DNA of 28,357 nucleotides from a virus. The stretch spans positions 1 to 28,357 of the IMG/VR virus record IMGVR_UViG_3300042563_003875, one strand, 5' to 3'. The notes under the pieces were generated by a model. The model had not been told where the DNA came from. It did not search any database and saw nothing but the letters and a program-made list of their open reading frames with translations. This document shows positions 2,631 to 21,232 of the stretch, piece by piece (position 1 is the stretch's first letter; every line of letters begins with the position of its first letter). A program made the translations under genes and the position numbers.

Positions 2631-3134
2631 ATGAGATATTCGGAAGATTTCTTCGAACGCCTGCAAAACCTGATGGAACAACGGGGGCTGAGCATGGCGG
2701 AGCTGGCCCGTGCCCTGCATACCCAACCCAGCACCCTGACGCGATGGAAGAATGGGAGCAAGCCCCAGCGGAACACCCTGATGTTGTTGGCCAAGGTGAT
2801 GGGCGTCTCTGATACGTGGATGGCTACCGGAAAGGGCCCGTGCCCGGTGACGGAAAATTCTTCAGCAAATTCAGATTGTTATGGACAGGTGGGTAGAATC
2901 CCCCATCCTGCGCCTATGAGCTACGGAATAAACAGGGACCCCGTCCCCTTGGCAGCAGGATTAGCGGAAACAGTGTTGTGGTCAGTGCTGCGGACCATTC
3001 CCATGCCGGAGCTGTTGGCGATGGTCCCCCGGCTGGCCAGCGACCAGGTCGCCATGCAAGTCGTCCTCGGTGAGGTTGGCCGCCGCGCCACTGATCCTAC
3101 CACTAACGTATCCCTAACTGCTGACTTGTCATGA
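2631..3134 (+). CDS. CI-like XRE-family repressor (short, no peptidase domain)
   Basis: The protein has 167 aa. Residues about 5-62 are a typical XRE helix-turn-helix ('FFERLQNLMEQRGLSMAELA' then 'HTQPSTLTRWKNGSKPQRNT'). The C-terminal part (from about 75) is a linker and a helical region, 'ETVLWSVLRTIPMPELLAMV', with no Ser/Lys S24 peptidase signature. Induction by RecA-style self-cleavage is therefore not expected. It is divergent from the Cro-like gene and its ATG directly follows the ACGCAA repeats. The stop overlaps the next ATG (ATGA at 3131-3134), so the repressor transcript should also carry the secreted-protein gene. It is the likely maintenance regulator of lysogeny. Confidence 0.78.
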   Translation: MRYSEDFFERLQNLMEQRGLSMAELARALHTQPSTLTRWKNGSKPQRNTLMLLAKVMGVSDTWMATGKGPCPVTENSSANSDCYGQVGRIPHPAPMSYGINRDPVPLAAGLAETVLWSVLRTIPMPELLAMVPRLASDQVAMQVVLGEVGRRATDPTTNVSLTADLS

Positions 3135-3901
3135 AAACACCCCCCCGCCTCCGCCGCCTCTCTCTGCTTTTGATATTGGCCAGCATGGCGGGTCCGTTGC
3201 CAGGGGCGGAGGAGGCCCCCCGGGAGTTTGCCCGGTTGGAGACGACCAAGGGCGTGATCTATGAGGGAGTGAAGGTGACCAAGGCGGAGCCGGACGGCCT
3301 GCGCATCACTCACAAAAACGGCGTGGCCAAGGTGCTCTTCCTGGACCTGAAGGATTTCGGGATCGCGGAAAAGTTTGGTTATGACTTCGCGGCGGGAACG
3401 GACTTCGCCACGGCGCAGCAGGAACAGGCGGCCGCGGTGCCGGCCGCCGCCACCCACACCGCGCAGGATCTGGCCGTGGCAGACCGCCAGAGCCGCCAGC
3501 GGGCCGCCGGGGCGGAGGATACCCGGAAGCTGGAGGCAGGCCTCGACAAGCGGGCGGTGCGCGTGGAGTGCGACTCCTTCCAGCAGGCCAAAGTGGGCCT
3601 GATAGGCAGCGTGAAGGTGGGCCACGTGATCCGCTGGGAGGAGAAACCCGGCAGCATGGCCAAGACCATCCCTGTCTGGCAGTATGCCCCCCCGGTGGAC
3701 GCGGTGCTGAGTGGCTACCAATCCCCCATGCAGGGCACGGAGATTTCCCGGTCAGGTCTCACGCGGGATTACATCGCATGGTCTGGCAAGGCGTGGGACA
3801 TCGGCACCGTGACCTATATCACGGTCACCGGAGCCAGCCGGACCGTGAAACACTTCACAGCGGATCGGGCGGCGGCCTTGGCTTATTTCAAGGGGCGCTG
3901 A
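3131..3901 (+). CDS. Secreted/periplasmic protein co-transcribed with the repressor
   Basis: The protein has 256 aa. Residues 1-26 are a signal peptide: basic 'MKTPPRLRR', hydrophobic 'LSLLLILASMAG', and a likely cleavage after PLPGA. Residues about 36-80 contain 'TTKGVIYEGVKVTKAEPDGL' followed by 'RITHKNGVAKVLFLDL', a small beta domain I associate with exported proteins of Verrucomicrobia and relatives. An Ala/Gln-rich helical region (95-140) and a C-terminal beta domain (about 140-256, 'VGLIGSVKVGHVIRWEE') follow. The start overlaps the repressor stop by four bases, so it should be expressed in the lysogen. That suggests a lysogenic-conversion ('moron') gene acting in the envelope. No enzymatic motif is seen. 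Confidence 0.75.
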   Translation: MKTPPRLRRLSLLLILASMAGPLPGAEEAPREFARLETTKGVIYEGVKVTKAEPDGLRITHKNGVAKVLFLDLKDFGIAEKFGYDFAAGTDFATAQQEQAAAVPAAATHTAQDLAVADRQSRQRAAGAEDTRKLEAGLDKRAVRVECDSFQQAKVGLIGSVKVGHVIRWEEKPGSMAKTIPVWQYAPPVDAVLSGYQSPMQGTEISRSGLTRDYIAWSGKAWDIGTVTYITVTGASRTVKHFTADRAAALAYFKGR

Positions 3902-8313: not shown

Positions 8314-9813
8314 ATGAACCCCACGCTGACATTACCGGAGACCCCGCAGGAGGGCTGGCGCATCGCCAGCCAGCGGCCGGACCATGCGCGGGCGTTCAAG
8401 GGTGCGGCCAAGGCCATCCCGGAGAGCGATCAATATTGGGTATGGTATCAGCACCGCTGGGTGCATGACCAAAGCCTGCTGCGGGTGATGCGGAAAAGCC
8501 GCCGCGTGGGCATAAGTTATTCCACGGCCTACGACTACACGCGGCAGCACGCCGCCGAGGGGATGCGCTGGGACTCTTGGGTGAGCAGCCGGGATCTGGT
8601 CAGCGCCTTGGAATTCCACCGCTACTGCAAGAGCTTTTCACGGGCCTTGCACGCGGCCAGTCAGGATCTGGGCGCGGTGGTGCTGGACGAAGATAAACAG
8701 GTCAGTGCCCAAGTGCTGCACTTTGCCAATGGGACGCGAATCCACTCCCTGACGAGCAACCCGGACGCGATGGCCTCCAAGGGCGGCAACGTGGCCATGG
8801 ATGAATTCGACCTGCGCACCAACCAGGAGGAAGCCTATGCGGTGGCGCAGCCCACCATCATGTGGGGCGGGCGGTTGTCTATCATCACCAGTGTCCGCAA
8901 CGAGACCAGTTTTTTCAATCAGCGGATTGTGAAGCCAATCCTGGAGCAGGGGAACCCGATGGGGTGGAGCCTGCACACCGTGACGCTCCAAACGGCGCTG
9001 GATCAGGGTTTCTTGTGGAAGCTGCAAACCCGCCTCGGGGATAACGACCCTCGGCTGGCGATGGATGAGGCGGCCTTCTTTGATTTCTGCCGCAGCCAGT
9101 GCGCCGATGAAGAGACCTTCCTGCGGGAATACATGTGCCAACCGTCCTCGGACGATTCCGCCTTCCTCCCCTACGATCTGATCTTCTCGGCGGAGTATCC
9201 GGCGGGGAGCGATTGGGAGGTGTCAGGGCCGGAGGACATCGCAAACCGGGAATACTACTGCGGGCTGGATGTGGGCCGGGTGACGGATCTCACGGTGCTG
9301 TGGATTGCGGAAAAGATCGGCGGGGTTTTTCTCACCGTCAAAATCATCGAACTGAAGGGCATGGAGTTTTCCCGGCAGGAGGCGATCCTCTATCCATGGC
9401 TGGCGCACTGCCGCCGGGCCGGGATCGATGCCAGCGGACTGGGCCGCCAGTTTGCAGAGCGGGCGCGGCAGCGGTTTGGCCGGAAGATCGAGGAAGTGGT
9501 CTTCACGGCGGCTATGAAGGAGCAGCTGGCCTTCCCACTGCGCGGGGCCTTCGAAGATGGGCGGGTGAAGATCCCGGCGCTGGACAAAGTGCGCTCGGAT
9601 TTGCGCCTGATCAAAAAGACCACCACCGCCGCCGGGAATGTCAGGTTTGATGGCGAGCGGACCGCCGATGGCCACTCTGACAGATTCTGGGCGCTGGCCC
9701 TCTGCCTCCATGCGGGGTCCGGCACCGGGCCGGTGGCCATGCCACAAACTCTCAATTCCGCAGGGCCTGGCCGCCGCCCTGGCCAAGTCTCCACCCGTGC
9801 CCTCAAAGGCTGA
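8314..9813 (+). CDS. Terminase large subunit (Mu gp28-like)
   Basis: The product has 499 aa from the ATG at 8314; the frame is open 182 codons further upstream but there overlaps the small-terminase gene. The ATPase half has a deviant Walker A, 'MRKSRRVGIS' (59-68), Walker B 'NVAMDEFD' (149-156), and the coupling motif 'IITSVRNE' (180-187). The nuclease half has the RNase H-like acidic residues D309 in 'CGLDVGR', D362 in 'IDASG', and D446 in 'GHSDRF'. It drives DNA into the prohead and cuts it. Length and motif order match Mu-like terminases. If the phage is transposable, packaging would be headful with host flanks. Confidence 0.9.
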   Translation: MNPTLTLPETPQEGWRIASQRPDHARAFKGAAKAIPESDQYWVWYQHRWVHDQSLLRVMRKSRRVGISYSTAYDYTRQHAAEGMRWDSWVSSRDLVSALEFHRYCKSFSRALHAASQDLGAVVLDEDKQVSAQVLHFANGTRIHSLTSNPDAMASKGGNVAMDEFDLRTNQEEAYAVAQPTIMWGGRLSIITSVRNETSFFNQRIVKPILEQGNPMGWSLHTVTLQTALDQGFLWKLQTRLGDNDPRLAMDEAAFFDFCRSQCADEETFLREYMCQPSSDDSAFLPYDLIFSAEYPAGSDWEVSGPEDIANREYYCGLDVGRVTDLTVLWIAEKIGGVFLTVKIIELKGMEFSRQEAILYPWLAHCRRAGIDASGLGRQFAERARQRFGRKIEEVVFTAAMKEQLAFPLRGAFEDGRVKIPALDKVRSDLRLIKKTTTAAGNVRFDGERTADGHSDRFWALALCLHAGSGTGPVAMPQTLNSAGPGRRPGQVSTRALKG

Positions 9814-9835
9814 CGGTTTCCACTTTCACGACAAT

Positions 9836-10783
9836 ATGAAGAAGTCACAACCACCAACCCCAGAAAACAGTGCCACTGCAAGACCTTGCAAGGGTCAAAC
9901 ACGGGACGGAATGCCGTTTGCGGGTGATGTGCCCAGACCGGGGGGGGTAGGGCCTGAGCCAGACCAAAATGGGAAGCGGCCGTCCGGTGCTCTGATCCGG
10001 TCCATTAAGCGTCCCGGCGGCAAGGCCCGGTTGTTGCCTATCCTGCTGCCACTGATCGCCGAGCGGAAGCATATCTGTTATGTCGAACCGTTCGCCGGGA
10101 GCTTCACGGTGGGATTCAACAAGCCCCGCGCAGCCGTTAACGTGCTCAATGATATGGACGGGGAAATGCTGAATGCATTCCGGCAGCTCCAGCGTCATTC
10201 TGCCAGCCTGCTGGAAGAGCTGGACGGGATGATTAATTCCCGGGAGGAAATGTACCGGCTCAAAGCATCGAAAGGCGAGGGCCTTACTGAAATCCAGCGG
10301 GCCGCTTGGTTTTTGTGGACGGTGCATATCAGCTTTGGATCAGATGGGCGCACGTTCGGGGTCGTGAGGACCGGCCCATCCGGGGCGGCCACGAGGGTGT
10401 CCGCTCTGATGAGCAAGGTGAAGGCCCTCCGCCAACACTTGGATGGCGTCATCATCGAACACCTCGACTGGCTGCGCTGCCTGCGCCTTTACGATTCTCC
10501 TGATACGCTGTTTTTTCTGGACCCGCCTTACACCACCGGGAAGGTGGCAAGTTATGCCATGTTTACCGCCGCCGATATGGATGCGCTGCGGGACGGACTG
10601 CTGGAGTTGAAAGGGGCGTGGGTGCTGACGGTGGACGACACGGCGGACAACCGGCGGAGGTTCGGGCAGTGGCTGGCCGGTCTTAAAACCAGCCGGTCGG
10701 GGGTTTGCAACCAGGCCAAAGGGTCCAAGGACTTCAAAGAGCTGATCTGTGCATCATGGAAGGGAGGTCCAGCTGATGTCTGA
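9836..10783 (+). CDS. D12-class DNA N6-adenine methyltransferase
   Basis: The product has 315 aa from the ATG at 9836; an in-frame ATG at 9638 lies inside the terminase gene. Motifs: 'RPGGK' (59-63, the F/P-x-G-G-K box), SAM-binding 'YVEPFAGS' (82-89), 'NDMDGEM' (105-111), and catalytic 'DPPY' (229-232). Residues 1-50 are a polar extension not usual for Dam. It transfers methyl groups to adenine in double-stranded DNA; the target could be GATC but is not proven. Its stop overlaps the portal start by 8 bases, so it is translationally tied to head genes. Position between terminase and portal is unusual. It may protect packaged DNA from host restriction. Confidence 0.88.
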   Translation: MKKSQPPTPENSATARPCKGQTRDGMPFAGDVPRPGGVGPEPDQNGKRPSGALIRSIKRPGGKARLLPILLPLIAERKHICYVEPFAGSFTVGFNKPRAAVNVLNDMDGEMLNAFRQLQRHSASLLEELDGMINSREEMYRLKASKGEGLTEIQRAAWFLWTVHISFGSDGRTFGVVRTGPSGAATRVSALMSKVKALRQHLDGVIIEHLDWLRCLRLYDSPDTLFFLDPPYTTGKVASYAMFTAADMDALRDGLLELKGAWVLTVDDTADNRRRFGQWLAGLKTSRSGVCNQAKGSKDFKELICASWKGGPADV

Positions 10784-13892: not shown

Positions 13893-14870
13893 ATGAATCC
13901 AAAACCTAAAACCGGCCGCTTGACCGCCGTCTTGGCCCTCGCCTGCACCGCCCCCCTCTGGGCCGTGAATAACAGCTTTGAGGCCGCGCACAATGACACC
14001 TTGACCACCTACGCCTCCGGGCTGGGAGTCGATGCCGCCAGCCAGTCCCTGCTGAACTGGATTGCCCCTATCGTCAACACCCAGGGGGAGACCCAAGGCA
14101 GTTATAAGAAATTCGTCACGGCGGATTCCTTCCGCACCTACACCACCGCGATGGTGAGCGGAGACCGCAACCGGGTGGTCTTTAACTCGGACGATGGCAC
14201 CTACGCCTGCAAACCGAACGGACTGGAAATCGTGACCACCCGCCACGAGCAATCCGGCAAGGGCGAGGTCCGCAAGAAAAAGATCCGCCAGCTGGTGGAT
14301 GCTGCCTTCCGTTCCCGGGAGCTGGCAGGCTGGACCTACATTGCCGCCAACGTGACCGCCACCGGTGGCGTGGGGGTGTGGAGCAATGCCGCCAATGACC
14401 CCGTGGCAGAGATCGATGCCCAGCTACTCGCCATCAGCATTGCCTGCTGCGGCAACAAGGCCAACCGGATCATCATCCCGTTGGCGGTCTGGAACACGGT
14501 CAAAAACCACGCACTGGTGAAGGCCCGCATTGTGGGACTGACGGCGGCCGCTTCCCTGGAGCAGTTTGCTGGGATGCTTTTGCACCCGGTGGAGATCAAG
14601 GTGGCCGATATGGCCTACGAGACCGCCGCCCGCGGGAAGACCACCAACGTGGCCGTGATCCTGTCCGCTGCGGTTTACATCTTCATCGCCAATGACAATC
14701 CCACCGAGATGGATTTGTCCGCCTTCAAAACCTTCTCCACCGCCGCCGGTCTGGTGGGCAATGTGGAGAGTTACAAGGAAAAGGGCACCAATGACGTCGA
14801 TTTGATCGACTGGAGCGAAGACCTCCAGGTCACCGCCGCCATCGCCATCCGGCGCATCACGGTCAGCTGA
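13893..14870 (+). CDS. Major capsid protein with signal-peptide-like N-terminus
   Basis: The product has 325 aa. Residues 1-24 are basic then hydrophobic, ending in W-A ('MNPKPKTGRLTAVLALACTA' then PLWA), and would score as a Sec signal in other contexts. The body is capsid-like: 'SLLNWIAPIVNTQGETQGSY', 'FRTYTTAMVSGDRNRVVFNS', then 'RELAGWTYIAANVTATG', 'RIIIPLAVWNTVKNHALVKA' and a C-terminal 'DLQVTAAIAIRRITVS', typical of HK97-fold proteins of Mu-like phages. Position after protease and decoration genes supports the call. The hydrophobic N-arm may be removed during maturation. No alternative downstream start fits, since the next Met is near residue 88. Confidence 0.8.
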   Translation: MNPKPKTGRLTAVLALACTAPLWAVNNSFEAAHNDTLTTYASGLGVDAASQSLLNWIAPIVNTQGETQGSYKKFVTADSFRTYTTAMVSGDRNRVVFNSDDGTYACKPNGLEIVTTRHEQSGKGEVRKKKIRQLVDAAFRSRELAGWTYIAANVTATGGVGVWSNAANDPVAEIDAQLLAISIACCGNKANRIIIPLAVWNTVKNHALVKARIVGLTAAASLEQFAGMLLHPVEIKVADMAYETAARGKTTNVAVILSAAVYIFIANDNPTEMDLSAFKTFSTAAGLVGNVESYKEKGTNDVDLIDWSEDLQVTAAIAIRRITVS

Positions 14871-14978: not shown

Positions 14979-15425
14979 ATGTCCTGGAATCTCTACACGA
15001 CCGAGCTCGCCGCCTCCCTGCTGGGGCCACGCGAAATGTCCGCCATCAACACGCACGCCGGGATCGATGTGCAGACGGATGTCCTCAAACGGGTGGTGGG
15101 AAAGATCCGCGCCTATTGTGCCGGGGCTGGGGAGTTGGGGGAAGAAGGCACTATCCCCGATGAATGCGAGGATGCCCTGGCCACCCTCTACCGCTACGCC
15201 CTGCTCAGTGTCCTCCCGGTGGGTGATCTGATCACCGCCGCCCGCACTGAAGAAAAGAAAGCCGCCGAGAACTTCCTCAAACTGGTCAGCGAAGGAAAGA
15301 TCGGGATCTCCCGGCCCACCACGGTGGCCGTGCCGTCTTCCGGCCTGACCGGCCCCGGCAGTGTCTCCCCTACCATTTCCGCCGGATCCCGCCGCCGCGA
15401 CCGCACCGGCCTGGACGGATCCTGA
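14979..15425 (+). CDS. Head-tail connector candidate (Mu gp36/DUF1320-like)
   Basis: The product has 148 aa. Residues 1-100 are helical, with 'RVVGKIRAYCAGAGELGEEG' then 'TIPDECEDALATLYRYALLS' and 'EEKKAAENFLKLVSEGKIGI'. The I-R-A-x-x-x-x-x...G-T-I-P-D-E pattern and E-E-x-x-A-x-x-x-L-x-x-x-x-x-G motif are those of gp36-type proteins encoded just after the capsid gene. The C-terminal 40 residues are Ser/Pro/Gly-rich and flexible. It likely sits below the portal. The ATG is preceded by GCTGCCCCC. Confidence 0.68.
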   Translation: MSWNLYTTELAASLLGPREMSAINTHAGIDVQTDVLKRVVGKIRAYCAGAGELGEEGTIPDECEDALATLYRYALLSVLPVGDLITAARTEEKKAAENFLKLVSEGKIGISRPTTVAVPSSGLTGPGSVSPTISAGSRRRDRTGLDGS

Positions 15426-15443: not shown

Positions 15444-16124
15444 ATGTTCCGCTTTTCCCTCCTCCTATTTCTGGCCCTTGCAGGCCCCCTGCAAGCCCAG
15501 GTGCGCAGCCTGCCCATCAAGGCACAGCGCCCTGCCACCACCGGCCCGGCGATCAGCCACTACGTGGCCAACCCGCTGACCCTGACCCTGACGCTGGATG
15601 CCACCCGGCCCACCCTGACGGGTGCCGAGGCGCTGGCGGTGGAGATCCGCACCAGTGTGACCGACACCACCCCCGCGCTGGCCCTGACGGAAATCACCAG
15701 CCCCACCGGGCCGGGACCCTTTACCCTGGCGCTCAGCGGGCCGCAGCTGAACCAACCGCTGGGCGGGCAAAACCAGAAAGCCTTCTGGCTGGTGGTCTAC
15801 ACGATGGATGACGCCGGGGAGACTTTGGATGTCCTCTACACCGCGCCCCTCACTCTCAAGGCCCACGGGGCCAGCCTATCCGCCGCCTCTCCTCCCAATG
15901 TGGTGGGCAATCTGAACCGCCCGCAGGCCGATGCCCTTTATGCCCCGCTCACCACGATCGCTGATTTGCAGATCCTCATCAGCGGGCTGGAGGCCCAGCT
16001 GGCGGGGCTGGGACCTACCACGATCACCGCCGACAATTCCACGAATACCATCACCCTCACGGCCGATAACTCGACCATCACCTCTGATCAATCTGACCTC
16101 ACCGCCGACCAATCACCCCTATGA
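15444..16124 (+). CDS. Signal-peptide-bearing fibre-like protein 1, 226 aa
   Basis: Residues 1-18 are a signal peptide ('MFRFSLLLFLALAGPLQA'). The mature region about 35-140 is a beta-sandwich-like domain ('PLTLTLTLDATRPTLTGAEA', 'LAVEIRTSVTDTTPALALTE', 'KAFWLVVYTMDD'). Residues 150-190 contain 'NLNRPQADALYAPLTTIADL' and a short helix, a trimer-stalk style segment, and the tail is a Thr/Asp/Ser-rich low-complexity repeat ('TADNST' twice, then 'SDQSDLTADQS'). The stop overlaps the next start (ATGA at 16121-16124). It is part of the unusual exported cassette between head and tail genes. The family is not recognised. Confidence 0.65.
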   Translation: MFRFSLLLFLALAGPLQAQVRSLPIKAQRPATTGPAISHYVANPLTLTLTLDATRPTLTGAEALAVEIRTSVTDTTPALALTEITSPTGPGPFTLALSGPQLNQPLGGQNQKAFWLVVYTMDDAGETLDVLYTAPLTLKAHGASLSAASPPNVVGNLNRPQADALYAPLTTIADLQILISGLEAQLAGLGPTTITADNSTNTITLTADNSTITSDQSDLTADQSPL

Positions 16125-17395
16125 AATATTTCCTGATCTTCTGCCTGCTGGCCCTCCCTGCGTGGGGAGCGCAGCAATCCATTGGAGTCGGTGCCGCGGC
16201 TAACGACGGCACCGGCGACCCCCTCCGCACGGCCTTCTTAAAGTCGAACGCCAACTTCACGGAGCTTTACGGCCGCGCTTTTGATTCCGACATCACTTTG
16301 TGGGCGGGCATCACCCCCGCCGCCGGGGTGGGCACGGTGCTGGCCACCCCCTCCAGCGCCAATCTGCTGGCGGCTCTGACGGATGAGACCGGCACCGGGG
16401 CGGCGGTGTTTGGCACCAGCCCCACCCTTACCACTCCCTCGCTGGGCACGCCGTCCGCCTTGGTTGGCACCAACATCACCGGGACCGCCGCTGGCCTGAC
16501 GGCGGGGATCTCCAACGCGCTCAAATCGGCCACCACCACCGTGAGCGTGGCGGCCGCCACCGCGCCCACCGCGGGCCAAGTCCTCACCGCGACCAGCTCC
16601 ATCGCCGCCACGTGGCAAACCGTCACCGGGACTGGGGACGTCACCGCCGCCGCCGCCTTCGGAACCGACAACCGCCTGATCCGCTCCGATGGCACGGGCA
16701 AGGGCACGCAGGCCACCGGCATCACCGTCAGTGACGCGGATGCCATCTCAGGGATTGCCAGCATGGCCGTGACCGGAGCGCTGAGCACTCCATCCATCCT
16801 GATCAATGAGGCCGCCGCGCCAGCCACCCCTGCGGCTGGGCTGGTAACGTTTTACGCCAAAACGGATGGCCTGATCTACGGCAAGGACGATGCCGGAGCG
16901 GAAACCGCGCTCAGCAATGACACGGCCGCTCTATCACTCAAGGCACCCCTGGCCGCCCCTACCTTCACCGGCATTCCCGCCGCCCCCACCGCCGCGACCG
17001 GCACCAGCACCACGCAGCTGGCCACCACCGCCTATGTGCAGGCCGAGGTGGACACCACGCAGACCGGAGTCCACGCCACCCCGTCCACCACCAATCCACT
17101 GGCCCCCACGTGGTCCGGCCCCACTCAGCTGATCTGGTATGGAGCCACGGGGGAGGTCGATCTACCCGCCGCCGCTGGCTACACCGGCCGGGGTCTGATC
17201 CTCTACAACACCGGAGCGTTCACGGTGACTTTCGACCCCAACGCGTCCGAGGTGATTGTGCGGGACGGTGCGGTGCAGACCGGTGGCGTCTCCTTCACCC
17301 TTTCAAGCGGCGCGGGGAACTACGTGGCGCTCGTCTCGGACGGTGCCCGCTGGGTCACCCTCGGATTCAAAGGCACCTTAACCGCTGGCAGCTAA
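16121..17395 (+). CDS. Signal-peptide-bearing tail-fibre-like protein 2, 424 aa
   Basis: Residues 1-17 are a signal peptide ('MKYFLIFCLLALPAWGA'). It then opens with 'IGVGAAANDGTGDPLRTAFL' and 'KSNANFTELYGRAF', a motif common at the base of phage tail fibres. A long Ala/Thr/Gly-rich repetitive shaft follows (residues 60-280), including 'APTFTGIPAAPTAATGTSTT' and 'QLATTAYVQAEVD', which is a widespread fibre repeat. The C-terminal about 100 residues ('LIWYGATGEVDLPAAAGYTG', 'FTVTFDPNASEVIVRDGA') form a beta head. Fibre identity is fairly secure; the presence of a secretion signal on a fibre is odd. It is coupled to the preceding gene by ATGA overlap. Confidence 0.75.
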   Translation: MKYFLIFCLLALPAWGAQQSIGVGAAANDGTGDPLRTAFLKSNANFTELYGRAFDSDITLWAGITPAAGVGTVLATPSSANLLAALTDETGTGAAVFGTSPTLTTPSLGTPSALVGTNITGTAAGLTAGISNALKSATTTVSVAAATAPTAGQVLTATSSIAATWQTVTGTGDVTAAAAFGTDNRLIRSDGTGKGTQATGITVSDADAISGIASMAVTGALSTPSILINEAAAPATPAAGLVTFYAKTDGLIYGKDDAGAETALSNDTAALSLKAPLAAPTFTGIPAAPTAATGTSTTQLATTAYVQAEVDTTQTGVHATPSTTNPLAPTWSGPTQLIWYGATGEVDLPAAAGYTGRGLILYNTGAFTVTFDPNASEVIVRDGAVQTGGVSFTLSSGAGNYVALVSDGARWVTLGFKGTLTAGS

Positions 17396-17402
17396 ACCAC
17401 CC

Positions 17403-18137
17403 ATGAAAGCATTCATCCACTTCTGGATCCTCCTCGCCCTCGCCCTCCTACCCGCGCAGGGGCAAGGCGTCCTGTCTCTGGCCGGGTCTCCTCCGGCGGC
17501 TGGCGGCGGCGGACCCTCCTATCTGGTCAACCAGAATTTCGAGGGCACCGGCTACGACAACGCGGAAATCTGGACGGAAGACCTCGGCACCGGCGGGACG
17601 GTGAATGAGGACTACACCACCACCCCATTGGTGGGGAGTCAATCCCTCCTGCTCTCGGAGGCCACTGGCGATGTCTCCGCCAAAATCACCATCCCTGGTG
17701 GACCCCACACTGACTTGTGGGGCTACGCTCAACTCCAGGTGGTTTCCCACCCAAATGACGGAGTGGCAGGGCGGCAGTTGATCCGATTCGGTGATGGATC
17801 ACCCTTACTGGCTGGAGCGTTGATCGATGTGACGGGAGGGACCAGTTTCAAGCTGCGAGCACATAACGGTGACTCCAGCGGCACCCCCTCCACGGACAGC
17901 TTCACCTCGGGACTCGTCCACATCTGGTGGCACGCATCCACCATCACTGACACCTGCGAAGTCTGGTGGTCAGCCACCTCCACCCGTTCAGCGACCGGCG
18001 GGACAAAATACAGCACCTACACCTCCAGCGTCTCGACCGGCTACACGCAACTCTGGATCCTCTGCGACTACCCCGCTGCCCAATTCAAGTTCGACAAAGT
18101 GCTGGTCTCAACCTCCGAAATCGGCAACGCCCCATGA
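17403..18137 (+). CDS. Signal-peptide-bearing jelly-roll (LamG-like) protein 3, 244 aa
   Basis: Residues 1-20 are a signal peptide ('MKAFIHFWILLALALLPAQG'), followed by a Gly-rich linker. Residues about 40-240 resemble a concanavalin A/LamG-type jelly roll: 'NQNFEGTGYDNAEIWTEDLG', 'VNEDYTTTPLVGSQSLLLSE', 'SFKLRAHNGDSSGTPSTDSF', 'WILCDYPAAQFKFDKVLVST'. Such domains bind sugars and occur in phage adhesins. Its stop overlaps the next start by four bases (ATGA at 18134). The carbohydrate-binding role is inferred from fold resemblance. Confidence 0.68.
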   Translation: MKAFIHFWILLALALLPAQGQGVLSLAGSPPAAGGGGPSYLVNQNFEGTGYDNAEIWTEDLGTGGTVNEDYTTTPLVGSQSLLLSEATGDVSAKITIPGGPHTDLWGYAQLQVVSHPNDGVAGRQLIRFGDGSPLLAGALIDVTGGTSFKLRAHNGDSSGTPSTDSFTSGLVHIWWHASTITDTCEVWWSATSTRSATGGTKYSTYTSSVSTGYTQLWILCDYPAAQFKFDKVLVSTSEIGNAP

Positions 18138-20215
18138 AAAAACTCCTTCTGATTCTCCTCCTACTGCTGTCCTGCCAGGCGCAGGCCTATGTCATGCCAA
18201 TCGGTGTGCCAAACGCATGGATTGATCCAGCGGTCGCCGCCCCTGCTCGCCCCTCCCCATGGACCACTCCCACCGCAGGATATTACTTTGTGGATTGGAA
18301 CACTGGCACCGACTCTGGCCGCACCTACGGCACCCCATCCGCACCTCGCAAGACAATCCCAAACCCAGTCCCAGCGGGGTCACGGGTGGAGATGGCCGCT
18401 GGAGCCTACGGTGGAGGCACCCTCGCCGCTGGAGAATATTCCGGGGCCATCGAATTGGATTTGACCGCAGCAGGCACATCCGCCGCCTGGGCAGCGGGAT
18501 CGGCTGGCCCCGCCTGGATTATCGGGGCGGATAGCCTTGCCAGCGTCATGACCTGCTCATGGGTCATGCATGGATCATATCTACACATCAGCGGATTGAA
18601 ATGGCCGCGAATCCGTTACTACCGGTGCCAGATCGGGAGCGGTGGAGCCGATTATCCCTCAGACCATTTTTTGATCCGAAACTGCGAAATGGACGGAGGA
18701 GGGGGGGTCGGTTCGTTCGGGATGATTATTGAAGGCAAAGCGGGGTTCACGAACCAACACACGATTATTTACAACAACGTCATCCACGGCTACGGCAACA
18801 TGGCGACCACGACCGATGAGGACAACAATGCCTTGGCCACGGGGAGTCATTGTTTTGATATGTGGATCGTGAATAACACGATGCACACCTGCACGGCGGG
18901 TATCCGCGCCGGGGCCGCTGGCGGGGCGGCAGGGCCGGAGACATGCCAGCGACTTTATGTGGCTGGCAACGAGGTCTACAACATTTTGCAATCTGGAATC
19001 TGGGTGAAGTATTCCCAGGACGTGGTCATGTCATCAAACTACGTCCACGGAATTATTGATACCCCGTGGAGCCCGTCAAAGTGCATGGGTGCCCAGTATG
19101 CGCCAAAGGGGCTGTGGATCATCTACAACCGGATTGAGGCGGGACGTTATGGAGTAGCCATCTTTTCGACGGAGGGCGATGGAATCGCCGAAACCTGGCC
19201 GGTCTACATCATCGGTAACATCATCACCGGGGCACGGCAACCCAGCGGGACCTACAGCAATACCGGGGGGTATGGCAACGCGGCCATCGCCGTTTGGGGA
19301 TCGACGGAACGCTATATCGTCGGGAACACGCTTTACGACAACTGTTCCGGCATCCTTTTTCCGGGGAGTATCGCCAGCAGCACCACTCAAATCCGCAACA
19401 ACATCATTTCGGGTATCACGGAACTAGGCACGGCGCTCACCGCTGGAAAACACATTGGAGTGGGGGAGGGGGCCAGTACGGGCAACACAGTGATCAACCA
19501 CAACCTCTACTACCAATCCGGCGGGACCGCTCAAATCCGCTGGAATACCGGGGCCTATACCTTGGCGACGCTCCGATCATCGACCGATCAAGGGGACAAT
19601 GATGTGGAGGGCGATCCATTGTTCACCAATACCGCCACCGGGGATTTTACGCTACTCAGTGGAAGCCCCGCCAGAGACACCGGCAGTGCGACACTGATTG
19701 ACACGCTGGAGGCGCTCTACCTATCCACGTTCGGGGTGAACCTGTCCCGCGACTACGCCGGGAACGCCCGGCCTGTAAATGCCATCTACGATATGGGGGC
19801 CTATGAGTTCGGGTCGGCATTCGCAGACACCGCCCCGCCAACTCTGACTAGCGCCACCATCCTGACCGGAGGCACCACCCTTGTCCTGGCCTTTTCGGAG
19901 GCCGTCGGCCCCGGCGCGGGTGGATCTGTCGGCTGGGCGCTGTCCCTATCCACCGGCAGTGTCACCGCCTCCTATGCCAGCGGCAGCGGCACTTCCTCTC
20001 TGACCTACAACCTCAGCGGTACCGTAGTCACATCCACCACCGGGACGGTGAGTTACACGCAGCCAGGCAACGGCATCGAAGATGGCACCGGCAACGACCT
20101 GACCACCCTCAGTGGGTTTCCGATCACCAACAGCTCCACCCAAGTCGGAGGCGGAGGCGCTGGCACCATCACCACCGGCACGGTCACCGCCGGGTCCATC
20201 TCGGTGGGTCTGTAA
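18134..20215 (+). CDS. Signal-peptide-bearing parallel beta-helix spike-like protein 4, 693 aa
   Basis: This starts at the ATG at 18134, overlapping the previous stop; a longer frame from 17966 is rejected. Residues 1-18 are a signal peptide ending A-Q-A; L-L-S-C14 could instead be a lipobox. Residues about 155-450 show right-handed parallel beta-helix repeats with recurring Asn: 'FLIRNCEMDGG', 'IIYNNVIHGYGN', 'LYVAGNEVYNI', 'VVMSSNYVHGI', 'VYIIGNIITG', 'YIVGNTLYDN', 'IRNNIISGI'. 'YDMGAYEF' (about 551) ends it. Residues 565-670 are an Ig-like/SwmB-type domain ('TTLVLAFSEAVGPGA'). Spike or exported polysaccharide-binding protein; no catalytic site identified. Confidence 0.78.
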   Translation: MKKLLLILLLLLSCQAQAYVMPIGVPNAWIDPAVAAPARPSPWTTPTAGYYFVDWNTGTDSGRTYGTPSAPRKTIPNPVPAGSRVEMAAGAYGGGTLAAGEYSGAIELDLTAAGTSAAWAAGSAGPAWIIGADSLASVMTCSWVMHGSYLHISGLKWPRIRYYRCQIGSGGADYPSDHFLIRNCEMDGGGGVGSFGMIIEGKAGFTNQHTIIYNNVIHGYGNMATTTDEDNNALATGSHCFDMWIVNNTMHTCTAGIRAGAAGGAAGPETCQRLYVAGNEVYNILQSGIWVKYSQDVVMSSNYVHGIIDTPWSPSKCMGAQYAPKGLWIIYNRIEAGRYGVAIFSTEGDGIAETWPVYIIGNIITGARQPSGTYSNTGGYGNAAIAVWGSTERYIVGNTLYDNCSGILFPGSIASSTTQIRNNIISGITELGTALTAGKHIGVGEGASTGNTVINHNLYYQSGGTAQIRWNTGAYTLATLRSSTDQGDNDVEGDPLFTNTATGDFTLLSGSPARDTGSATLIDTLEALYLSTFGVNLSRDYAGNARPVNAIYDMGAYEFGSAFADTAPPTLTSATILTGGTTLVLAFSEAVGPGAGGSVGWALSLSTGSVTASYASGSGTSSLTYNLSGTVVTSTTGTVSYTQPGNGIEDGTGNDLTTLSGFPITNSSTQVGGGGAGTITTGTVTAGSISVGL

Positions 20216-20245: not shown

Positions 20246-21232
20246 GTGACTACTTTATCTGATGCCTACCGCCTGGCCAGGGGGCGGCGTGTGCTGCCCT
20301 CGGCGCTGAGTAGTGCGGAGCAGCGGGTGGCGTTTTCGGCGGCGGTGCGGTCGCGGGCGGTGTTTTCGGCACGGACGACATCGCTGGCCTATCTGGACAT
20401 CCAGCGGCGGGCGCTGGAGGATCTGCTGCGCGGCGAGGTGGAGACGGTGGATAAGGACGGGCAGCCTTGGACCCAGAGCATCGGCCAGGCGGAAACGCGG
20501 CTGCGGCTGAAGCAGGCGCTGGCGGCCTTGCACTACGACCCTGAGGCCGGGCACTTCGGCACGGCGGCGGATGCGGAGATCCCCCCGGCGGAGCGCGGCA
20601 GCTTGCAGGATCTGAGCAGTGACCGGCGGCTGGATCTGATCATCGACGTGCAGCGGCAGCGGTGGCAGAGCGCGGGCCAGCTGGAGCGCGGCATGGTGCC
20701 TGCGGTGCTGGCGGCCTTCCCCGCATGGGAGCTGACGGGCAGCAGTGCGATGGAGCCCCGGCAAAACTGGCCCGCCCGCTGGATGGCAGCAGGCGGGGTG
20801 CTCTATGGCCCCGGGGAAAATCGCATGATCGCAGCCAAGACCAGCAGGGTCTGGCAACGGCTGGGTGATCTGGAAGACTTCGCGGATGGGATCGATGGCG
20901 GCCTGCCACCCTTCGCCTTTGGCAGCAAACGCGGCTGGCTGGCGGTGAGCCGGGCGGAGTGCGTGGCCATGGGCGTGGAGCTGGCAGATGCCCCGGCCAA
21001 GGCCAGTGGCAAGCCCCCTGCAAGTCCCATGCAGGAACCCGGCACAAGTGCAGCGGAGCGTCTGCCTGCGCTAGTGGCCACGGTGCCTGCGGGTGTGAGC
21101 GAGGCCGGGCTGGCAGCCCTGCGGGCGGCGGTGGGCGGGAAGCTGGCGGGCAAACGCCTGACCTTTGAAGAGCGGCTGGCGAAGTCCCTGGCCCCGGCCA
21201 TGGCCAAGGCGGCGGAGGAGGCAGCGAAATGA
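20246..21232 (+). CDS. Minor head/morphogenesis-like protein
   Basis: The product has 328 aa from the GTG at 20246, preceded by the C-rich leader CCCCATCCCCATCCCC. The N-terminal 60 residues are helical ('RSRAVFSARTTSLAYLDIQR'). The central region 'DLSSDRRLDLIIDVQRQRWQ', 'VPAVLAAFPAWELTGSSAME', 'PRQNWPARWMAAGG', 'NRMIAAKTSRVWQRLGD' and 'PPFAFGSKRGW' matches what I recall of minor-capsid/morphogenesis proteins in verrucomicrobial prophages, where 'RDW..RW..AGG' and 'PPF.FNSGM' are conserved. The C-terminus is Ala/Lys-rich. It may replace the Mu F protein, which is missing after the portal. The family name is uncertain. Confidence 0.6.
   Translation: MTTLSDAYRLARGRRVLPSALSSAEQRVAFSAAVRSRAVFSARTTSLAYLDIQRRALEDLLRGEVETVDKDGQPWTQSIGQAETRLRLKQALAALHYDPEAGHFGTAADAEIPPAERGSLQDLSSDRRLDLIIDVQRQRWQSAGQLERGMVPAVLAAFPAWELTGSSAMEPRQNWPARWMAAGGVLYGPGENRMIAAKTSRVWQRLGDLEDFADGIDGGLPPFAFGSKRGWLAVSRAECVAMGVELADAPAKASGKPPASPMQEPGTSAAERLPALVATVPAGVSEAGLAALRAAVGGKLAGKRLTFEERLAKSLAPAMAKAAEEAAK

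Follow-up and report, generated by a model that had tools for sequence, protein, structure and literature searches.

Signal-peptide leaders on four consecutive fibre-type genes in a phage structural block, and a possible route through host Sec

Background

The assembly of tailed phages is taught as a cytoplasmic process, and P22-type tailspikes and T4 long tail fibres are synthesized in the cytoplasm without a signal peptide. The locus analyzed here raises the question of why four consecutive fibre-type genes (f1 to f4) within a phage structural block should each begin with what reads as a signal peptide, and where their products would go. We approached it in a viral DNA of 28,357 nucleotides, the whole of IMG/VR record IMGVR_UViG_3300042563_003875 (hereafter the window), whose gene content includes terminase, portal, protease, capsid, a gp36-like connector, minor head and lysis genes.

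The export of phage proteins has precedents. The endolysin Lys44 of phage fOg44 has a true signal peptide and is exported through Sec and processed before lysis (PMC6116005), and the phage-encoded lambda Lom, whose gene lies in the tail-fibre region, has a signal peptide as well (PMC12309495). The likeness to f1 to f4 lies in the signal peptide; Lys44, however, is a lysis enzyme and no tail fibre, and Lom is a beta-barrel of the outer membrane made in lysogens, in contrast to the structural-block proteins f2 (fibre) and f4 (beta-helix). In the open-access literature searched we found no earlier description of Sec signal peptides on tail fibres.

Results and discussion

The gene block

The four open reading frames at 15444, 16121, 17403 and 18134 given in a preliminary description of this DNA were confirmed, together with their 4-base ATGA overlaps (at 16121 and 18134) and the 7-base gap before 17403. 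They form a single late block on the forward strand, with the gp36-like connector gene upstream (14979 to 15425, forward strand; PF07030 E 0.01, which is below the cut-off, with homologues in relatives) and the minor head (MuF-like) gene downstream (20246 to 21232, forward strand; its homologue at 18473 of the related locus L211 matches phrog_220, minor head protein, E 3.9e-8). The product of f1 (15444 to 16124, 226 aa) combines a predicted signal peptide (residues 1-18) with a beta-rich domain without assigned family and a predicted helix; f2 (16121 to 17395, 424 aa) has a signal peptide, a T4 gp9/gp10-type baseplate-docking N-terminus and fibre repeats; f3 (17403 to 18137, 244 aa) has a signal peptide (residues 1-20) and a beta-rich domain without assigned family; and f4 (18134 to 20215, 693 aa) has a signal peptide (residues 1-18), a right-handed beta-helix spike and a C-terminal domain common to other viral spikes. 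Among the four, a tail-docking N-terminal domain is seen in f2 only.

The domains proposed earlier hold for the base motif of f2 and for the beta-helix of f4 (PF13229, E 4.1e-9), which resembles the spike of P22-type tailspikes. The beta domain of f1 and the LamG-like jelly roll of f3 were not confirmed: neither protein has a Pfam match, f3 has no PHROG match either, and the single-sequence AlphaFold models, although beta-rich, are of low confidence (mean pLDDT 53 for f1 and 38 for f3) and too poor to use. No relative of f1 was found in viral contigs. A BppU-like upper-baseplate fold suspected by eye for f1 was not supported (hhalign probability 1%, a low-confidence model and no PDB fold match at E <= 0.001); we claim it neither for f1 nor for the similar domain of relatives. 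The f4 protein also matches phrog_30287 (E 9.3e-15), and its C-terminal domain recurs in other viral proteins.

Leaders compared with chance

Signal peptides were detected with a home-made rule-based n/h/c scorer. It flags f1 to f4, in each of which a short run of basic residues leads into a hydrophobic core free of charges, followed by a cleavage motif of small residues. As a null, every leader of fitting length derived from the window was set before each mature protein (about 56,600 leaders each). The f1 leader (15444 to 15497, forward strand; MFRFSLLLFLALAGPLQA, predicted cleavage between MFRFSLLLFLALAGPLQA and Q) is equalled or exceeded by 27 of 56,606 such leaders, and the f2 leader (16121 to 16168, forward strand; MKYFLIFCLLALPAWG, cleavage between MKYFLIFCLLALPAWG and AQQ, directly 5' of AQQSIGVGAAANDGTGDPLRTAF) by 53 of about 56,600. 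For f3 (17403 to 17462, forward strand; MKAFIHFWILLALALLPAQG, cleavage between MKAFIHFWILLALALLPAQG and Q) and f4 (18134 to 18187, forward strand; MKKLLLILLLLLSCQAQA, cleavage between MKKLLLILLLLLSCQAQA and Y) the counts are 36 of 56,594 and 5 of 56,606, respectively. Scores like those of f1 to f4 thus arise among random leaders at about 1 in 1,000 to 1 in 10,000 per gene, and whole-protein shuffles matched the observed scores in 0-3 of 2000 cases per protein. The signal peptides noticed earlier on all four products therefore stand well above both nulls. A possible weak lipobox in f4 (LLSC) precedes an equally good site (AQA before Y), and f1 to f3 have no lipobox.

The scorer's false-positive rate looks low. 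For the core genes of related loci (terminase, portal, protease, capsid, gp36-like, minor-head and tail), none of 152 homologues was flagged, and among 72 full-length fibre ORFs sharing f2 sequence, nearly all from IMG/VR, the only one flagged (L130) is a plausible true case. That the leaders are an artefact, i.e. chance hydrophobic N-termini or wrong start codons, might be suspected because the scorer is home-made and the capsid gene of the window has a second start. We nevertheless consider this very improbable: the genes are four in a row, each with a chance of about 0.0001-0.001, the ATGA overlaps fix the start codons of two of them, the core genes stay unflagged (0/152), and the feature recurs in related prophages and unrelated contigs, as described below.

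The leader of f2 precedes an ordinary docking domain

Residues 18-65 of f2 align with residues 2-49 of the T4 baseplate protein gp10 (E 5.7e-4). Along the full length only these N-terminal 48 residues align, the remainder of f2 being unrelated to gp10. The motif DGTGDxLR is common to f2 and the gp10/gp9-type connectors, and the family matches of f2 are to tail fibre and baseplate groups (phrog_454, E 3.2e-10; phrog_677; phrog_958), with PF07880 at E 0.0027, below its cut-off. The likeness to T4 gp10 and the cyanophage gp9-type connectors (PF07880, phrog_677, phrog_958) therefore lies in the N-terminal docking domain, but the connectors are leaderless with the domain starting at residue 2, whereas in f2 it starts directly behind a 16-residue signal peptide. 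In one Bradyrhizobium phage and six cyanophages, all seven annotated, the f2-type domain likewise opens at residue 2, and these homologues begin M-AQQ or M-AKQ without a leader; the Bradyrhizobium protein reads M-AQQVVNVGAVANDGTGDALRTAF and f2 of the window reads ...LPAWG-AQQSIGVGAAANDGTGDPLRTAF. Since the domain begins at residue 2 in the leaderless homologues, the first 16 residues of f2 are an addition placed exactly ahead of an ordinary fibre, and cleavage by signal peptidase would, judging from this alignment, restore a normal tail-docking N-terminus. The preliminary description had counted homologues lacking the hydrophobic stretch against its interpretation. They do exist (cyanophages, Bradyrhizobium phage, T4 gp10), but they indicate a leader that was added, not one that is fictitious. 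Used as the sole query, the N-terminal motif of f2 had no match in 388 Verrucomicrobiota genomes.

Host and related prophages

Relatives of the portal protein occur in 90 of 388 Verrucomicrobiota genomes (best E 2e-87), compared to a best E of 7.5e-21 in 120 Pseudomonadota genomes. As the matches are stronger in Verrucomicrobiota, the host is probably a verrucomicrobiote. The portal, protease and capsid genes of the Akkermansia phage DTMo-2021a (CP084202), whose host also belongs to Verrucomicrobiota, are related to those of the window (27%, 32% and 29%, respectively); no signal-peptide gene was flagged on the coding strand of the 24-kb stretch of this phage that was read. Capsid and portal queries against viral contigs returned no relatives, and the terminase was used as query instead.

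We collected and oriented 40 loci from portal-positive genomes and five more; 17 of them retain a late region that includes a minor-head or tail gene. A search for the same cassette in related prophages, as suggested beforehand, revealed a signal-peptide fibre or fibre-like protein of at least 180 aa in 11 of these 17 (L206, L211, L214, L215, L216, L220, L222, L223, L228, L233 and L235). Five others (L213, L218, L226, L231, L236) have no signal-peptide fibre in the late region, and L234 is ambiguous. Several of these proteins are clear fibres, among them a collar fibre with a leader at L211 12478 (phrog_523 E 1.6e-28; PF07484 E 2.3e-19) and a leader-bearing protein with a NPHSVTKAQIGLGNVDN fibre repeat at L223 12156 (phrog_35419 E 1.4e-25). 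Others, e.g. L206 12502 and L215 12269, could be assigned to no family, and only their position and composition make them fibre-like. In L206 and L211, where the right boundary was mapped, no further fibre gene was found between the hub and host DNA, which makes the leader-bearing proteins the best candidate receptor-binding proteins.

Leaders also appear to move. A small late protein (cluster 2) has a leader in five flagged relatives and is leaderless in three copies of one genome, so leaders have been gained or lost. Two late genes of L233 (7235 and 8449) are almost identical for about 60 bases of leader DNA, up to the cleavage site and no further; this leader behaves as a swappable module copied between two genes.

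Recurrence outside the group

Viral contigs found through the C-terminal domain of f4 contain runs of leader-bearing fibre-like genes, with three in a row in L306 and three in L308; L304 and L307, found in the same way, have leader-bearing fibre-like genes judged partly by eye. L325 carries three leader-bearing genes in a row, the first being a collar fibre whose N-terminus (NDFYNHGSFP...) occurs leaderless in L112, and L300, from Pseudomonadota, resembles L325. In nine Pseudomonadota Mu-like loci we found no leader-bearing fibre within about 14-20 kb, and some fibres may fall outside these slices. That leaders occur both in the related prophages and in contigs outside the group speaks against chance as their source. 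As a separate observation, the leaders at L308 8037, 9152 and 11193, around the f4-like gene, derive from a repeated AAGAGTACAAG-type DNA motif (YKSKRVQEYKS), and the 5' ends of these genes look copied.

Leaders on capsid proteins

The major capsid gene of the window (13893 to 14870, forward strand; phrog_1005 E 7.2e-19) encodes a 24-residue signal-peptide-like leader as well (MNPKPKTGRLTAVLALACTAPLWA, 13893 to 13964), which 111 of 56,570 leaders equal or exceed in score. An internal GTG (13965) lies where its relatives begin, and 0 of 26 of these carry a leader. Comparable leaders are found on Pseudomonadota Mu-like capsid proteins at L377 5410 and L380 5155 (reverse complement) (PF10124, E 1.6e-97 and 1.3e-117), whose genes have an internal ATG near the canonical start. 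Because an exported capsid protein could not assemble, a leader is by itself no proof of export, and leader-bearing capsid proteins in three Mu-like phages restrict our confidence in the export model. Such leaders can mean either that two forms of the capsid protein are made or that they serve membrane targeting.

T4 head assembly begins on the membrane. This, together with the leaders on capsid proteins bound for the cytoplasm in the window and the two Pseudomonadota phages, fits an explanation in which the leaders of f1 to f4 are membrane-targeting or anchor segments, either drawing virion parts to the inner membrane or remaining in the particle as hydrophobic N-termini that aid entry. We regard this explanation as improbable in view of the good type I cleavage sites in the leaders and of the two L233 genes, whose leader identity ends at the cleavage site. 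Moreover, the capsid genes keep an internal GTG or ATG at or near the canonical position, whereas f2 and the L300 and L325 fibres have no internal start there.

Proposed route of the fibre proteins

Our preferred reading, to which we assign a probability of roughly 0.45, is that f1 to f4 are receptor-binding fibres of a tailed phage, which would leave the cytoplasm by way of host Sec and be attached to virions at lysis. It starts from what is read directly in the sequence, i.e. the leaders, the add-on position in f2, the location in the late block, the recurrence elsewhere and the copying of leader modules. The four genes would be expressed from the late structural block, with leaders for Sec and signal peptidase I added before fibre N-termini of the usual kind. 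The products would be exported and trimmed in the course of lytic growth, f2 thereby regaining its docking N-terminus, and they would fold or wait in the periplasm until lysis mixes the compartments and allows them to join virions assembled in the cytoplasm. In P22 and T4, fibres or spikes join finished particles in extracts, and their addition comes last. A step that comes so late and proceeds in extracts makes joining at lysis plausible. The benefit may be, as a guess, that sticky or enzymatic fibres are kept out of the cytoplasm, or that folding is oxidative; cysteine content of the mature proteins, tested as a sign of periplasmic folding, showed no enrichment.

The preliminary description had offered several fates for exported products. 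This interpretation is partly supported. Export is still the most economical way to read the signal peptides, and it calls for no new export machinery, host Sec being sufficient. Addition to virions after lysis fits best, given that the f2 docking domain is intact behind the cleavage site and that the two mapped prophages hold no other fibre. A lysogen made sticky or resistant is less likely in view of the structural-block location, the overlapping joints and promoter-like sites that show no excess over shuffles at the block.

As the main alternative, the proteins could be exported without ever entering the virion and, in the manner of lambda Lom, act on the infected-cell surface, debris or neighbours, having borrowed fibre domains. 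Possible roles would include receptor masking, superinfection exclusion, adhesion or glycan degradation by enzymes. A signal peptide has no obvious role in a virion, Lom itself combines a signal peptide with a place in the lambda tail-fibre region (PMC12309495), and some Verrucomicrobiota host proteins combine a signal peptide with a collar domain. Leaderless fibres could also lie beyond the end of the contig, because it stops soon after the tail genes. We still consider a purely non-virion role rather unlikely, as f2 retains a complete tail-docking domain, the block is embedded among structural genes, and the two mapped prophages have no alternative fibre from hub to host DNA.

The export of receptor-binding fibres may extend beyond this phage. 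A tentative and more doubtful generalization is that virion construction is split between two compartments in many uncultivated phages, with leader modules shuffled among fibre genes and some capsid genes having dual starts. Heads and tails would then be made in the cytoplasm, the receptor-binding fibres would reach the periplasm by host Sec, and lysis would bring the parts together; the dual starts could yield leader-bearing and leaderless capsid forms. If the receptor-binding proteins of whole phage groups use Sec, fibre folding and phenotypic mixing in co-infection would need rethinking, as would the blocking of receptors by free fibres and the way in which secreted auxiliary enzymes are annotated in environmental viromes. 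A DGR survey counted the absence of signal peptides from phage target proteins in favour of their phage origin (PMC6199706); surveys that read a signal peptide as a bacterial or auxiliary mark would, if the proposal is true, mis-sort phage receptor-binding proteins.

Other observations in the window and related loci

The tail-collar domain proved non-discriminating as a phylum-wide probe, most of its matches being non-phage or host-type proteins. Seven loci (L199, L205, L208, L209, L210, L212 and L237) have portal, protease and capsid genes and no match to the window terminase gene, and three such portal/protease/capsid copies without a terminase match lie in one 3.9-Mb contig (G091). Loci without a window-type terminase could be capsid-only satellites or remnants. 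A signal-peptide gene of no known function (126-225 aa) lies directly or nearly behind the capsid gene in five related loci (L206 7004, L211 9060, L220 6562, L222 7156 and L228 8579). In the window, another signal-peptide protein is encoded at 3131 to 3901, adjoining a repressor-like gene, with weak homologues in 4 of 79 Verrucomicrobiota genomes versus 0 of 80 Pseudomonadota genomes. An adenine-methyltransferase-like gene (9638 to 10783) has the terminase on one side and the portal on the other; its homologues in L216 and L223 are placed differently, between the gp36-like and minor-head genes.
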